A stretch of DNA of 64,000 bases from Bacillus sp. 491mf. GTDB lineage: Bacteria; Bacillota; Bacilli; Bacillales; Bacillaceae_G. Below, piece after piece: positions 22,050 through 29,487 of this stretch. The notes beneath the pieces are model-generated. The model made no database searches and was not told the DNA's origin. It was given only the letters and a program-made list of their open reading frames with translations. Position 1 is the first letter of the stretch; each line of letters opens with the position of its first letter. Both the position numbers and the translations under genes were made by a program. The stretch covers positions 62,001 through 126,000 of the forward strand of contig NZ_FOLV01000002.1 of assembly GCF_900112415.1 (NCBI RefSeq), in the 5' to 3' direction.

Positions 22050-22115
22050 GAAGCGCAAAAATGGGCTTATCCTTTTAATTTTTTAACCCAAAAAATTTTG
22101 GCTTAAAAATTGCAT
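22050..22115 (+). promoter_or_regulatory. Sigma-54 promoter upstream of puuP-like gene, with possible activator site
   Basis: TTGGCTTAAAAATTGCAT (22098-22115) has GG and GC exactly ten bases apart, as sigma-54 needs. About 35 bases upstream, AAGCGCAAAAATGGGCTT (22053-22070) is an imperfect palindrome like those before the other two sigma-54 promoters. The rest of 21878-22243 holds a solo bcr1-like end (about 21935-21953, reversed) and a cre site. Confidence 0.75.
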
Positions 22116-22173
22116 GAATATTTTAAAAATAAAAAGGGAGGCTGGAGTGCGGTATGTAATATGCGCGATTTAT

Positions 22174-22187
22174 TGAAAGCGTTTTCA
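22174..22187. promoter_or_regulatory. cre (CcpA) site
   Basis: TGAAAGCGTTTTCA is a perfect palindromic match to the catabolite-response consensus, placed between the sigma-54 promoter and the puuP-like start, where bound CcpA would act as a roadblock. Confidence 0.75.
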
Positions 22188-22243
22188 GTTTAATTATCAA
22201 ACGTTACATGGGAATTAGATAGAGAAAGTAGGAGGAATGATAG

Positions 22244-23593
22244 GTGGGGAAAGTAGTTGGTTTAAAACGTTCATTGGGACTTTGGTCAATTGTCATGCTA
22301 GGTGTCGGGTATATGACGCCGATGGTGGGATTCGATACATTTGGAATTGTCTCTGAAAAAACAGGTGGTCATGTTCCTGGAGCTTATCTTATTGCATTAG
22401 CAGGAATGTTATTTACAGCTGCAAGCTACGGCAAAATGGTAAAGGTTTTTCCTACTGCGGGATCTGCTTATACGTATACACAGAAGACAATTAGTACAAG
22501 GCTTGGATTCCTTGTTGGATGGTCAGCGTTATTGGATTATTTGTTTTTACCAATGGTGAACGCACTACTAACGAGGATTTATATGTCTGCACTTTTTCCG
22601 AGTGTTCCTTCTTGGATATGGGTCGTTGGATTTGTCCTACTAATTACACTTATAAATATTATTAGTGTAAATGTCACTGCTAATTTCAACACATTTTTAG
22701 TCGTGTTTCAAATATTAGTAATGGCTGTGTTTGTAATTCTTGTTGTAAAAGGATTGCTAGCAGGAGAAGGAACTGGAAAAGTTTTTTCCATTCGGCCGTT
22801 TTTTCAATCAGATATACAAATATCATCGTTCGTTGCAGGGGCCACAATTCTTTGCTTTTCATTTTTAGGTTTCGATGCAGTAACTACATTTTCGGAGGAA
22901 ACACCAAATGCGAAGAAGACAATTCCTCGGGCTATTTTTCTTACCGCTTTAATTGGCGGCATTTTATTTATTAGTACTACGTATTTCACACAATCCTTTT
23001 TTCCAGATGCATCCGTATTTAAAGATCAAGAATCAGCGGCACCAGAAATCGCGCTATACGTTGGTGGAAAACTATTTCAAACTTTCTTTTTAGTAGGAAC
23101 ATTTATGGGAACAATGGCATCAGGTTTAGCTTCTCATACAAGTGTGTCGCGATTATTATACGTAATGGGGCGGGATAATGTAATCCCGCAGAAGATATTT
23201 GGATACATTCATCCTCGCTGGCGAACTCCCGTATATAACATTATTATTGTGGGAATAATTTCACTTTCCGCTATATTTATCGATTTAGAAACAGCAGCAT
23301 CTCTTATTAATTTCGGAGCGCTTATTGCATTTACTTTTGTTAATTTATCTGTCATTGCTTACTATGTTATCAAGCAAAAAAGATATAAAACAGCAAAAGA
23401 CTTTTTTAATTTCTTAGTTCTACCTATTTTCGGAGCAGGTACAGTAGCTGTGTTATGGTTTAACCTCAATATTCATTCGCTAATTCTTGGACTTAGCTGG
23501 GCTGCTGTTGGAATTGGTTACTTGTTGTATATTACGAACATGTTCCGATCAGCTCCACCGCAAATGCATTTTGAAGAAGTGCAGGAAATATAA
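22244..23593 (+). CDS. puuP: APC-family permease, PuuP-like putrescine importer
   Basis: A 449-residue, roughly twelve-TM transporter. As I recall E. coli PuuP, long stretches match nearly residue for residue: [69 protein letters not shown] and [17 protein letters not shown]. That makes putrescine the likely substrate. GTG start after AGGAGG. It lies under a sigma-54 promoter and cre site and precedes the activator, dehydrogenase and transaminase genes of the same pathway. Confidence 0.82.
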
Positions 23594-23600
23594 AATAACA

Positions 23601-26507: not shown

Positions 26508-26555
26508 CATGCGTTTTATTTAAAGAAATGTATGATTACTTGGTATTTTAAATGT

Positions 26556-26572
26556 TGGCACAATTATTGCTT
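26556..26572 (+). promoter_or_regulatory. Sigma-54 promoter
   Basis: TTGGCACAATTATTGCT with GG-N10-GC, reading into the aldehyde dehydrogenase and transaminase genes. Confidence 0.92.
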
Positions 26573-26610
26573 ATATAATATATGAACGATCGACAAAGGG
26601 GGATTAAATA

Positions 26611-28104
26611 GTGCTAGATTTAAAAATGTATATAAACGGTGAGTGGAAAGAGTCTAGTAATCAAGAAAAACGACCTATTATTAACCCTGCGAATGGCAAG
26701 GTTATCGCATATGCGCCTGAAGGAACGATCCTGGATGTGAAATCCGCGATAGAAGCGGCAAGAGCGACTTTTGAGAGCGGAATTTGGCCAGAAACATCCG
26801 CAGCTGAAAGAGCATCTTATTTATTTAAAATAGCAGATGAAATTGATAAAAATAAGGAAGAACTTACACGTCTTGAAACAATGGATAATGGAAAAACACA
26901 TCGCGAGGCAGAAGGTGATATTGGGGATGCGGCAGCTTGCTTCCGTTATTATGCTGGGCTTATTACAAAGCCAGATGGCCAAACATATCATGTAGCTGAT
27001 CCAATGCAAGCTATGGTAGTCAGAGAGCCGGTTGGTGTTTGTGGTTTAATTGTTCCTTGGAATTATCCGTTACTAATGAGTGTTTGGAAAATTGCACCTG
27101 CTTTAGCAGCTGGAAATACAATTGTATTTAAACCTTCTGAAGTGACACCAGTCACTGCAACAAAATTATTTGAAATCCTTGAGAAAGTAAATATGCCAAA
27201 AGGCGTTGCAAATATGGTAATGGGAGCTGGACCAACAGTAGGAAACGAGATTGCAGCAAGTGATAAAGTTGACATGATTTCCTTTACGGGTGGAACGAAA
27301 ACAGGAAAGCACATTATGAGAACAGCGGCGGATAATATGAAAAAGATTTCGCTAGAACTTGGCGGGAAGTCTCCAAATATTATTTTTGCAGATGCAGATT
27401 TTGAAACCGCTGTTGATTATGCGCTGTTTGGTATTTATGCAGGTACTGGACAAGTGTGTTCAGCGGGATCGAGAATTCTTGTAGAGGAAAGTATATATGA
27501 TAAATTCGTTACTCATTTCGTAGAACGAGCAAAGCAAATTAATGTTGGACCTGGTGATAACCTAGAATCAGAGATGGGACCACTTGTAAGTCAAGAGCAT
27601 ATGGAAAAAGTATTACGCTATATTGAGATTGGGAAAGACGAAGGAGCAGAAATTGCTTGCGGAGGAAAGCGTATACTTGCGGATGGAAAAGGTGATGGTT
27701 TCTTTATTGAACCAACGGTCTTTGTCAATGTAAAACCTGAAATGCGTATTGTGCAGGAAGAAATTTTTGGTCCTGTTGTAGTAATCCAAAAGTTTAAAGG
27801 TGAACAGGAAGCGATTGAGCTAGCAAACGGTACAGATTACGGTTTAGCTGGAGGGGTGTTTACTGTTGATGGGGCAAAAGCGATGCGCGTAATCCGCAAG
27901 CTTCGCGCTGGGATTACATGGATTAATAGTTATCATCCAACATACAACGAGGCGCCTTGGGGCGGATATAAGCAAAGTGGGATCGGTCGTAGTTTAGGAA
28001 CGTTTGGTTTAGAAGAATTTCAAGAAATTAAGCAGATTAATATAAATCTAGAAGTAGAACCAATTGGTTGGTTTGCAAATAAAAAGACTATAGGAGTGAA
28101 ATAA
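26611..28104 (+). CDS. NAD(P)-dependent aldehyde dehydrogenase, probable 4-aminobutyraldehyde dehydrogenase
   Basis: A 497-residue ALDH: Rossmann region with FTGGTKTGK, catalytic Glu in LELGGKSPN (about 250), nucleophile Cys in AGTGQVCSAGSRI (about 285), and the C-terminal NSYHPTYNEAPWGGYKQSG. The AxWGGxK-type ending is shared by betaine-aldehyde and aminoaldehyde dehydrogenases. Beside a PatA-like transaminase, its natural substrate is probably 4-aminobutanal (1-pyrroline), giving GABA (inference). GTG start after AAGGGGGA. Immediately followed by the transaminase gene. Confidence 0.78.
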   Translation: MLDLKMYINGEWKESSNQEKRPIINPANGKVIAYAPEGTILDVKSAIEAARATFESGIWPETSAAERASYLFKIADEIDKNKEELTRLETMDNGKTHREAEGDIGDAAACFRYYAGLITKPDGQTYHVADPMQAMVVREPVGVCGLIVPWNYPLLMSVWKIAPALAAGNTIVFKPSEVTPVTATKLFEILEKVNMPKGVANMVMGAGPTVGNEIAASDKVDMISFTGGTKTGKHIMRTAADNMKKISLELGGKSPNIIFADADFETAVDYALFGIYAGTGQVCSAGSRILVEESIYDKFVTHFVERAKQINVGPGDNLESEMGPLVSQEHMEKVLRYIEIGKDEGAEIACGGKRILADGKGDGFFIEPTVFVNVKPEMRIVQEEIFGPVVVIQKFKGEQEAIELANGTDYGLAGGVFTVDGAKAMRVIRKLRAGITWINSYHPTYNEAPWGGYKQSGIGRSLGTFGLEEFQEIKQININLEVEPIGWFANKKTIGVK

Positions 28105-29487
28105 ATGGTGACGAATATAGAAAGTAAATCAAATGAGCAGGATGTAAACAATTCAAATGTAAATGATTATATTATGAAAGTACTGCAGTTAATTGAAAAA
28201 GAAAAGGTCTCTGAAGAAGAGGCGAACTGGATCCAAAAAGAAACAGTAGATGGATTTAGAGAGCATGTTAATCCTGGTTTTCTTGCCTACAGAAAAACAG
28301 TAACAAAAGATGGACAATTTGCAGCAGTAGAATGGTCTGATGAAGGATCTTGTTTTATGGATATCAATGGAAAAAAATATATTGATTGTTTAGGTGGATT
28401 TGGGATTTATAATGTTGGACACCGTAATCCGAAAGTGGTGAAAGCTGTAACAGATCAATTAAAGCGTCAAGCATTGCATAGTCAGGATCTACTAGATCCA
28501 CTTCGTGCGATTCTTGCAAAGATTTTAGCAGATATTACACCTGGTGATTTGAAATATGCTTTCTTTACAAATAGTGGGACAGAAAGTGTGGAGGCGGCAT
28601 TAAAATTAGCAAAAATGTATAGTGAACGAACAACTTTCATTTCAACAACACGTGCCTTTCACGGTAAGAGTCTTGGATCTTTATCTGGAACAGCAAAAGG
28701 AATGTTCCGTAAACCATTCTTACCATTAATTCCAGGTTTCCGTCACGTTCCATTTGGCGATATCGAGATGATGAGAAAAACATTTGAAACTTGTGTATTA
28801 GTAGGTGAAGATGTTGCAGCTGTTATTCTAGAACCAATTCAAGGGGAAGGCGGTATTATTTTACCTCCAGAAAATTATTTAAAAGAAGTAAGAGAACTCT
28901 GTGATGAATTTGGATCATTGCTTATTTTTGATGAGGTACAAACTGGGATGGGACGTACAGGGAGAATGTTTGCGGCAGAACTGTATGATGTAGTGCCGGA
29001 TATTATCTGTCTTGCGAAGGCATTTGGCGGAGGCGTAATGCCAGCAGGTGCAATTGTTGCCAAAGAACAAGTATTTAAAAGTTGGTTTGATAACCCATTC
29101 ATGCATACAACAACGTTTGGTGGAAATCCACTTGCATGTGCTGCTGCAATTGCAACAATTCATGTTTTATTGGAAGAGAACTTACCAGCACGAGCTGCAG
29201 AAGTTGGGGAGTATTTCTTAAACGGATTGAAAAAAGCAGCGGAAGGACATGAAGACAAAGTATTTGAAATTCGTGGTCAAGGTTTAATGATTGGTATTGA
29301 GTTCCATAAAGATGAAATTGGATATGAAGTATCGAAAGCAATGTTTGATCAAGGCATCCTTGTTGCAGGAACGCTAATTAATTCAAAAACAATTCGTATT
29401 GAACCGTCTCTTACAATTAGTTATGAAGAAGTAGATACGGTAATCAATACTTTCAAATCAGTGTTAGCACAAGTAAAAGTACAATAA
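28105..29487 (+). CDS. patA: Class III aminotransferase, PatA-like putrescine aminotransferase
   Basis: A 460-residue PLP enzyme (E. coli PatA has 459). Near-identical stretches I recall from PatA include [66 protein letters not shown] and [15 protein letters not shown]. The PLP lysine is in [10 protein letters not shown]. It converts putrescine to 4-aminobutanal. ATG abuts the dehydrogenase stop. Its own stop codon is part of the ATAAA that begins a bcr1-like repeat. Confidence 0.87.

Follow-up and report, generated by a model that had tools for sequence, protein, structure and literature searches.

Introduction

Does Bacillus sp. 491mf devote a sigma-54 regulon of its own to the use of putrescine, and which genes, sites and signal would such a regulon comprise? 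The question is raised by positions 22050-29487 of a 64-kb stretch of its genome (contig NZ_FOLV01000002.1; hereafter the window, in whose numbering all coordinates are given), where the plus strand carries five genes encoding a permease, a protein of 82 amino acids (aa), a transcriptional activator, an aldehyde dehydrogenase (ALDH) and a class III transaminase. An original prediction, made from the letters of the DNA, had named the permease, the ALDH, the GAFTGA-type activator and the transaminase as they stand and had missed the 82-aa gene at 23890-24138. We consider the block very probably a dedicated sigma-54 regulon for putrescine use, judging from comparison with the proteins and loci of relatives. 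What carries this reading was obtained by computation, namely the homologies, the promoter sites, a common operator and a conserved genomic link; we regard the finding as real and its putrescine reading as well supported by such comparison. The significance is twofold: the block would constitute a testable regulon for putrescine and agmatine use in the Bacillaceae, with a defined operator, activator and set of targets, and the operator motif offers a way to recognise the regulon in other genomes.

Enzymes and permease

The transaminase (460 aa; 28105-29487, plus strand) reads as the putrescine aminotransferase PatA. It is 62% identical to E. coli PatA over 437 aa, as against 33% to GabT (all E. 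coli K-12 reference proteins were taken from NC_000913), and it scores 786 bits with the putrescine aminotransferase equivalog PRK11522, above the cut-off of 612. Among solved structures, PatA chains are its best matches at 604 bits, the next family following at 286, while its score with TIGR03372 (657.8 bits) falls just short of the cut-off of 658.65. The permease (449 aa; 22244-23593, plus strand; PF00324/PF13520) is a PuuP-like member of the APC group and a putative putrescine importer. Of the three E. coli APC permeases compared it is closest to PuuP (61% over 432 aa) and PlaP (56%), with 23% identity to GabP; a PuuP model was not among the 22 NCBIfam families that it matched. The likeness of these two proteins to PuuP and PatA, which the original prediction had proposed, is borne out by alignment.

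The same alignment is less kind to the third enzyme. The ALDH (497 aa; 26611-28104, plus strand) is of the betaine/aminoaldehyde type and is 38% identical to PatD, 41% to PuuC and 36% to GabD of E. coli; it stays below the cut-offs of the PatD-type models, with 373 bits for TIGR03374 (cut-off 909) and 490 bits for the PRK13473 subfamily (cut-off 615). Since identity to PatD is so modest, its substrate would be 4-aminobutyraldehyde by virtue of gene context.

Promoters and a putative common operator

Two of the three promoters proposed for the block are exact matches to the sigma-54 consensus TTGGCAY-N5-TTGCW: P2 (TTGGCACGATTATTGCT, 23750-23766, plus strand) and P3 (TTGGCACAATTATTGCT, 26555-26571, plus strand, ahead of the ALDH and patA). 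Exact matches occur in the 64 kb solely at these two positions, where 0.07 would be expected, and none of 100 shuffled sequences contained two. P1 (TTGGCTTAAAAATTGCA, 22098-22114, plus strand), the promoter of the permease, has two mismatches; because 16 of the 112 matches to the -24/-12 pattern in the window have at most two mismatches, P1 among them, it is by itself not beyond chance. When six relatives are aligned, however, P1 coincides with the permease promoters of five (loci L061, L063, L064, L067 and L068, which are mutual close kin), not with that of L002, and the dyad ahead of P1 lines up with the permease-promoter dyads of all six; a chance match was rejected for P1 on this alignment. 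All three sites of the original prediction accordingly hold, the first by virtue of its relatives, with the qualification that P2 would drive the small 82-aa gene and not an enzyme.

In front of all three promoters lie putative operators, none noted in the original prediction. Exact copies of the dyad TATGCA-N4-TGCATA stand just upstream of each of the two exact promoters, at 23650-23665 (P2a) and 26488-26503 (P3b), both on the plus strand. At each of P1, P2 and P3 the dyads of the window form a pair with a spacing of exactly 19 bp, of which the second member is weak in the case of P2 and P3. Thus P2a is followed by a degenerate dyad, P2b (23669-23684; position weight matrix, PWM, score 6.5), P3b is preceded by a degenerate P3a (26469-26484; score 9.7), and P1 has two degenerate members, P1a (21967-21982; score 10.8) and P1b (21986-22001; score 12.5), all on the plus strand; the P1b score was reached by one of 200 mononucleotide shuffles of the region. 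The PWM was built from 46 distinct sites of relatives (51 sites in all) with the window left out.

The same dyad accompanies the activator in relatives. We assembled 22 loci with an orthologous activator: six were picked up by scanning with the activator, and the other 16 have activators that share at least 60% identity over 600 aa. A dyad TATGCA-N4-TGMATA was counted when at least 10 of its 12 positions matched within 250 bp of a promoter. It precedes 51 of the 63 sigma-54 promoters in these loci. In a control set of 66 other loci it was found at 11 of 54 promoters, an upper figure for the background because some of the control stretches come from genomes with an orthologous activator at another place (L058, for instance, overlaps L183). 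Shuffles gave it in 15 of 1300 cases and, like those used for the PWM, keep single-base composition only. By gene, the dyad was found before the ALDH (19/19), permease (10/10), glutamate dehydrogenase (GDH; 11/12), lipoyl-like gene (3/3), agmatine deiminase (2/2), ureohydrolase (2/3), GabT (1/4) and PatA (0/1), and at three of nine promoters without a reference gene. In 13 held-out loci, found by the N-terminus of the activator, it was present at 18 of 21 promoters. The Priestia megaterium plasmid NZ_CP085417, whose activator is 70% identical, has a 12/12 dyad 59 bp before the promoter ahead of gabT. Pairing recurs as well: a second dyad with a PWM score of at least 6 lies at -19 or +19 in 15/46 and 11/46 cases, as against 2 of 3128 at other offsets. 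Specificity for this activator is indicated by plus-strand promoters, to which the comparison was confined: the dyad with spacer 4 was present at 33 of 42 in the 16 further ortholog loci and at 0 of 26 beside activators only 28-37% identical, where 12 of the 26 promoters have GCAAA-N5-TTTGC. Taken together, these counts support a regulon of one activator, whose putative operator is common to its promoters and conserved along with it. The operator of RocR-like loci was also considered and is ruled out by the absence of the spacer-4 dyad from those 26 promoters. A strong operator score at 9675 was rejected as a further target, since it falls inside the open reading frame (ORF) 9663-10196.

The activator and its company in relatives

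The activator (709 aa; 24281-26410, plus strand) is of the sigma-54 enhancer-binding type, with a GAFTGA motif in its AAA+ domain (PF00158, 238 bits) and a helix-turn-helix (HTH_50, 35 bits). Ahead of these lie two PAS domains and, weakly, a CBS-like N-terminus: each of the 14 orthologues searched gave PAS matches, whereas only two of them gave a CBS match, at a best E of 0.0021. A structural model of the N-terminal 388 residues is of moderate confidence (mean predicted local distance difference test score, pLDDT, 70; predicted template modelling score 0.40), and its helices and strands would fit a CBS-like part followed by two PAS domains while proving neither. The top NCBIfam match is PrdR, at 425 bits under a cut-off of 795.

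The first 227 residues match in 73 of 299 genomes of the order at E 0.001, and one clear orthologue stands out in each of 30 genomes (E at most 1.3e-46; the match that follows has 28% identity and an E of 1.5e-23). A relative of PatA with at least 70% identity lies within 8 kb of 26 of these 30 orthologues. The loci of relatives also extend the pathway upstream, going by enzyme names that are our reading of the sequences: an agmatinase-type ureohydrolase is present in L001, L067, L068, L070, L071, L076 and L182, and agmatine deiminase together with carbamoylputrescine amidase in L005, L080, L083, L091 and the overlapping L058/L183, although the orthologous activator was not seen in the stretches fetched for L070 and L091. 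Such neighbours, which would lead from agmatine to putrescine, appear to favour putrescine more than any single homology does. The claim that putrescine is imported and turned into GABA (4-aminobutyrate) under one activator is therefore supported by the similarity to PuuP and PatA, by the agmatine-to-putrescine genes of relatives and by the operator common to all three promoters.

How such a regulon would work can be proposed as follows. The activator, made from its own promoter, would bind the TATGCA-N4-TGMATA dyads, paired 19 bp apart and centred 59-123 bp before the -24/-12 elements of the three promoters, while its CBS-like/PAS N-terminal region may detect a signal of the pathway, either putrescine or an intermediate. 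Its AAA+ domain would then remodel sigma-54 polymerase at P1 (importer), P2 (lipoyl-like protein) and P3 (ALDH and PatA). Putrescine would enter through the PuuP-like permease, be transaminated to 4-aminobutyraldehyde by PatA and be oxidised to GABA by the ALDH. With GABA the block would end, its further use presumably falling to genes outside the window; apart from the enzymes of the block itself, the 64 kb contain no relatives of gabT, gabD, GDH, agmatinase or agmatine deiminase at E 1e-6. Carbon control may be added through a cre-like site that follows P1.

Weighing the alternatives

Several observations weigh against a dedicated putrescine regulon. The ALDH falls under the cut-off of every family among the matches listed (25 of 44), and its nearest solved structures in the PDB are betaine aldehyde dehydrogenases. 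At P1 the -24 element and the two dyads are all degenerate. The core of the dyad was first read off the window itself, though PWM and held-out loci exclude the window; close kin among the 22 loci were counted separately, as the 51 sites and 46 distinct ones reflect; and the dyad is missing at 12 of the 63 promoters. Lastly, PatA is missing from the 8 kb around four of the 30 orthologous activators, whose loci instead contain genes with GabT and GabD as their best matches (in three of these four loci the GabT identity is only 30-31%), and on the P. megaterium plasmid the activator adjoins gabT and not patA. Because gabT/gabD replace patA beside some orthologous activators, the signal could be GABA or an intermediate further down the pathway.

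Of the alternatives, the one that survives best has the regulon acting on a related diamine or on a wider set of compounds (cadaverine, agmatine, spermidine products), with putrescine as one of several substrates. Broad specificity can occur both in permeases of the PuuP/PlaP type and in diamine transaminases of class III, and an ALDH that is not specifically PatD-like would suit such a range, as would the agmatine genes in the loci of relatives. Those same genes, however, feed putrescine and not cadaverine, and the transaminase exceeds the curated cut-off of an equivalog specific to putrescine aminotransferase, so that we think a broader regulon possible and rather unlikely.

The activator might alternatively sense GABA or succinic semialdehyde, in which case the block would be the upstream part of a regulon for GABA. 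In B. thuringiensis, GabR responds to one or the other of these compounds (PMC4428206), and the patA-less loci described above are what such an arm would predict, the more so as a dyad stands before the GabT-like gene in L085 (11/12), L193 (12/12), L194 (11/12) and the plasmid (12/12). Yet the GabT promoters of L071, L080 and L083 lack the dyad (7/12 matches) where promoters of the ALDH, permease and agmatine deiminase in these loci or their kin carry it, and PatA accompanies 26 of the 30 orthologues; a GABA-sensing activator accordingly strikes us as improbable. Since GDH and GabT/GabD, which catalyse neighbouring pathway steps, move in and out of the regulon across relatives, the activator's signal may be putrescine or an intermediate of its breakdown.

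That the three -24/-12 sites are chance and the genes ordinary sigma-A units, as P1 taken alone would allow, can be dismissed as extremely improbable, given that P2 and P3 are exact, unique and accompanied by exact dyads and that the same arrangement recurs across relatives.

Comparison with described systems

The enzymes and chemistry of the putative putrescine regulon are ordinary. E. coli performs the same reactions to GABA with PatA-PatD and PuuP, its patA also being dependent on sigma-54, via NtrC (PMC9397018). There, however, the genes lie apart under a general regulator, whereas the block unites importer, dehydrogenase and transaminase with a dedicated activator and has an ALDH that is not like PatD. 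Closer to home, the gab cluster of B. thuringiensis HD73 likewise couples a PAS-containing sigma-54 activator, GabR, to a transaminase and an ALDH, for the next pathway steps; its substrate is GABA, not putrescine (PMC4428206). According to that study, the use of arginine, GABA, lysine and sarcosine is known to be under sigma-54 control in the Bacillaceae, and the HD73 activators are GabR, RocR, PrdR, KamR, SoxR, BkdR, AcoR and LevR; in its accessible part none of the 16 sigma-54 units is named for putrescine and none of the eight activators is described with the layout of the block. RocR-like loci, identified as such by our reading, resemble the relatives of the block in often having a GDH gene and a lipoyl-like gene, and differ in their distant activators and their operator, as detailed above. 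In clostridia, OrdR (ornithine) and PrdR (proline) regulons likewise place amino-acid catabolism under dedicated sigma-54 activators; the upstream activating sequence of PrdR is of the TGT/ACA type (PMC6615313), unlike the dyad here, and the block's activator, as noted, scores under the PrdR cut-off. It also fits the block that the GDH and arginase/agmatinase families are mainly regulated by sigma-54 in Bacillota (PMC12316311).

A putrescine regulon with this layout had been thought undescribed, and this stands in so far as we found none in open-access papers in PMC; the absence is provisional because subscription journals are mostly uncovered. The accessible portions of PMC4524646, PMC9397018, PMC12316311, PMC6615313, PMC5320631 and PMC2423185 contain none of such kind; the main text of PMC6615313 uses neither the word putrescine nor the word polyamine, and that of PMC4524646 does not mention putrescine. 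Provisionally, then, it is the dedicated activator, its operator and the small companion protein for which we found no description.

The small lipoyl-like protein

The product of the gene behind P2 (82 aa; 23890-24138, plus strand) is the least explained part of the block. It matches NF005239 at 128 bits (cut-off 111) and, weakly, the Pfam Biotin_lipoyl family, and its AlphaFold2 model is all-beta with a mean pLDDT of 92.2; a lipoyl-like fold is assigned because of the Pfam match and the strand pattern. A carrier protein would have an attachment lysine in the hairpin, and the window protein has none: the residue at the biotin-lysine position is N38, and a lysine occupies this column in one of 89 lipoyl-like sequences, outside an MKM context (L139, for which no ORF was found, is left out of the count). 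In L001, L002, L004 and L005 the promoter drives GDH first and the lipoyl-like gene lies downstream, adjacent to it in L005 and separated by a gene for a protein of about 100 aa in the other three; the record of plasmid NZ_CP085417 labels a relative of the latter as SAV0927 family. L004 comes from Robertmurraya korlensis NBRC 107688. The small gene of the window retains promoter and putative operators without GDH and the ~100-aa gene, as do those of L078, L080 and L083.

We considered whether the block needs the lipoyl-like gene as an essential component and rejected this: it lies within 1 kb upstream of 17 of the 30 activator orthologues, whereas 12 lack it throughout the stretch fetched and one is cut off by a contig end. 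The alignment of the family matches in 71 of the 299 genomes at E 0.001, most often in G059 and G203 with seven matches each. We followed 82 loci (75 outside genome G001 at E at most 1.1e-14 plus seven further, weaker matches being dropped). An activator lies within the 8-kb flanks at 40 of these 82, or at 24 of 66 without the 16 loci with the orthologous activator, as against an expectation of about 6%, calculated from 28 genomes (~127 Mb) with 490 PF00158 matches. The 28 genomes were picked among carriers of lipoyl-like genes, the PF00158 search also matches 14 of 14 controls and so overcounts, and the alignment (A1), having been built from genes that neighbour this activator, is biased towards such loci. 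Lipoyl-like genes also occur in loci read as RocR-like, and in B. thuringiensis HD73 one target of RocR, HD73_0560, bears the annotation biotin carboxyl carrier protein (PMC4428206). Of the 82 loci, 33 have neither an activator nor an adjacent GDH, with mixed neighbours. In L105 the gene adjoins, on the opposite strand, what reads as sigL.

The companion is an unexplained, recurrent neighbour of nitrogen catabolism genes. As a guess, it may act in regulation as a partner of either GDH or the activator; that it represents a whole family of lysine-less biotin/lipoyl-fold regulatory partners, of GDH or of activators, in sigma-54-dependent amine and arginine catabolism is a tentative idea that we would sooner doubt than assume.

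Transcripts and surroundings

The block is likely transcribed as four units, namely the permease, the small lipoyl-like gene, ALDH-patA, and the activator alone, a reading that rests on terminator-like stem-loops after the permease, small gene and patA and on a weak sigma-A-like promoter before the activator. The stem after the permease (23598-23632) is listed by the scan on the minus strand and, being symmetric, is read as the permease terminator; that after the lipoyl-like gene (24148-24181, plus strand) was recognised by eye and is absent from the computed stem list; and that after patA (29498-29533, plus strand) falls within a dispersed repeat. The promoter candidate for the activator (24219-24247, plus strand) matches at 9 of 12 positions, in a region where sigma-A-like matches are near their chance number (38 found, 29.6 expected). 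Between P1 and the permease lies a perfect palindrome (22174-22187, plus strand), which is cre-like by the consensus and may be a catabolite repression site.

A 22-bp sequence, ACTGATTAAAGTTTCACTTYAT, has seven copies in the window, at 4656, 10193, 16501, 21932, 29484, 36090 and 50155, each with 0 or 2 mismatches (0.01 copies expected when up to three are allowed); those at 16501 and 29484 have a longer dispersed element in common. The copies at 21932 and 29484 had been candidates for terminal inverted repeats bounding the block, and were rejected since they belong to this seven-copy dispersed repeat; the match is therefore no proof of transposition. After the block, at 29754-29824, there is what remains of a decayed nrdF 3' end (80% over 56 bp, then 20/23), and similar DNA recurs at 29858-29895; an nrdF end that is partly duplicated thus seems to enclose the block. 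Among 397 genomes, the nrdF nearest to that of the window is 79% identical. Upstream, a group I intron (18887-19232; RF00028, 69.7 bits) apparently splits a gene, presumably nrdE, into the ORFs 18221-18922 and 19286-20674. Elsewhere in the window a PreQ1 riboswitch (11895-11938) lies upstream of what read as queuosine genes, while 58557-58784 is a T-box leader.

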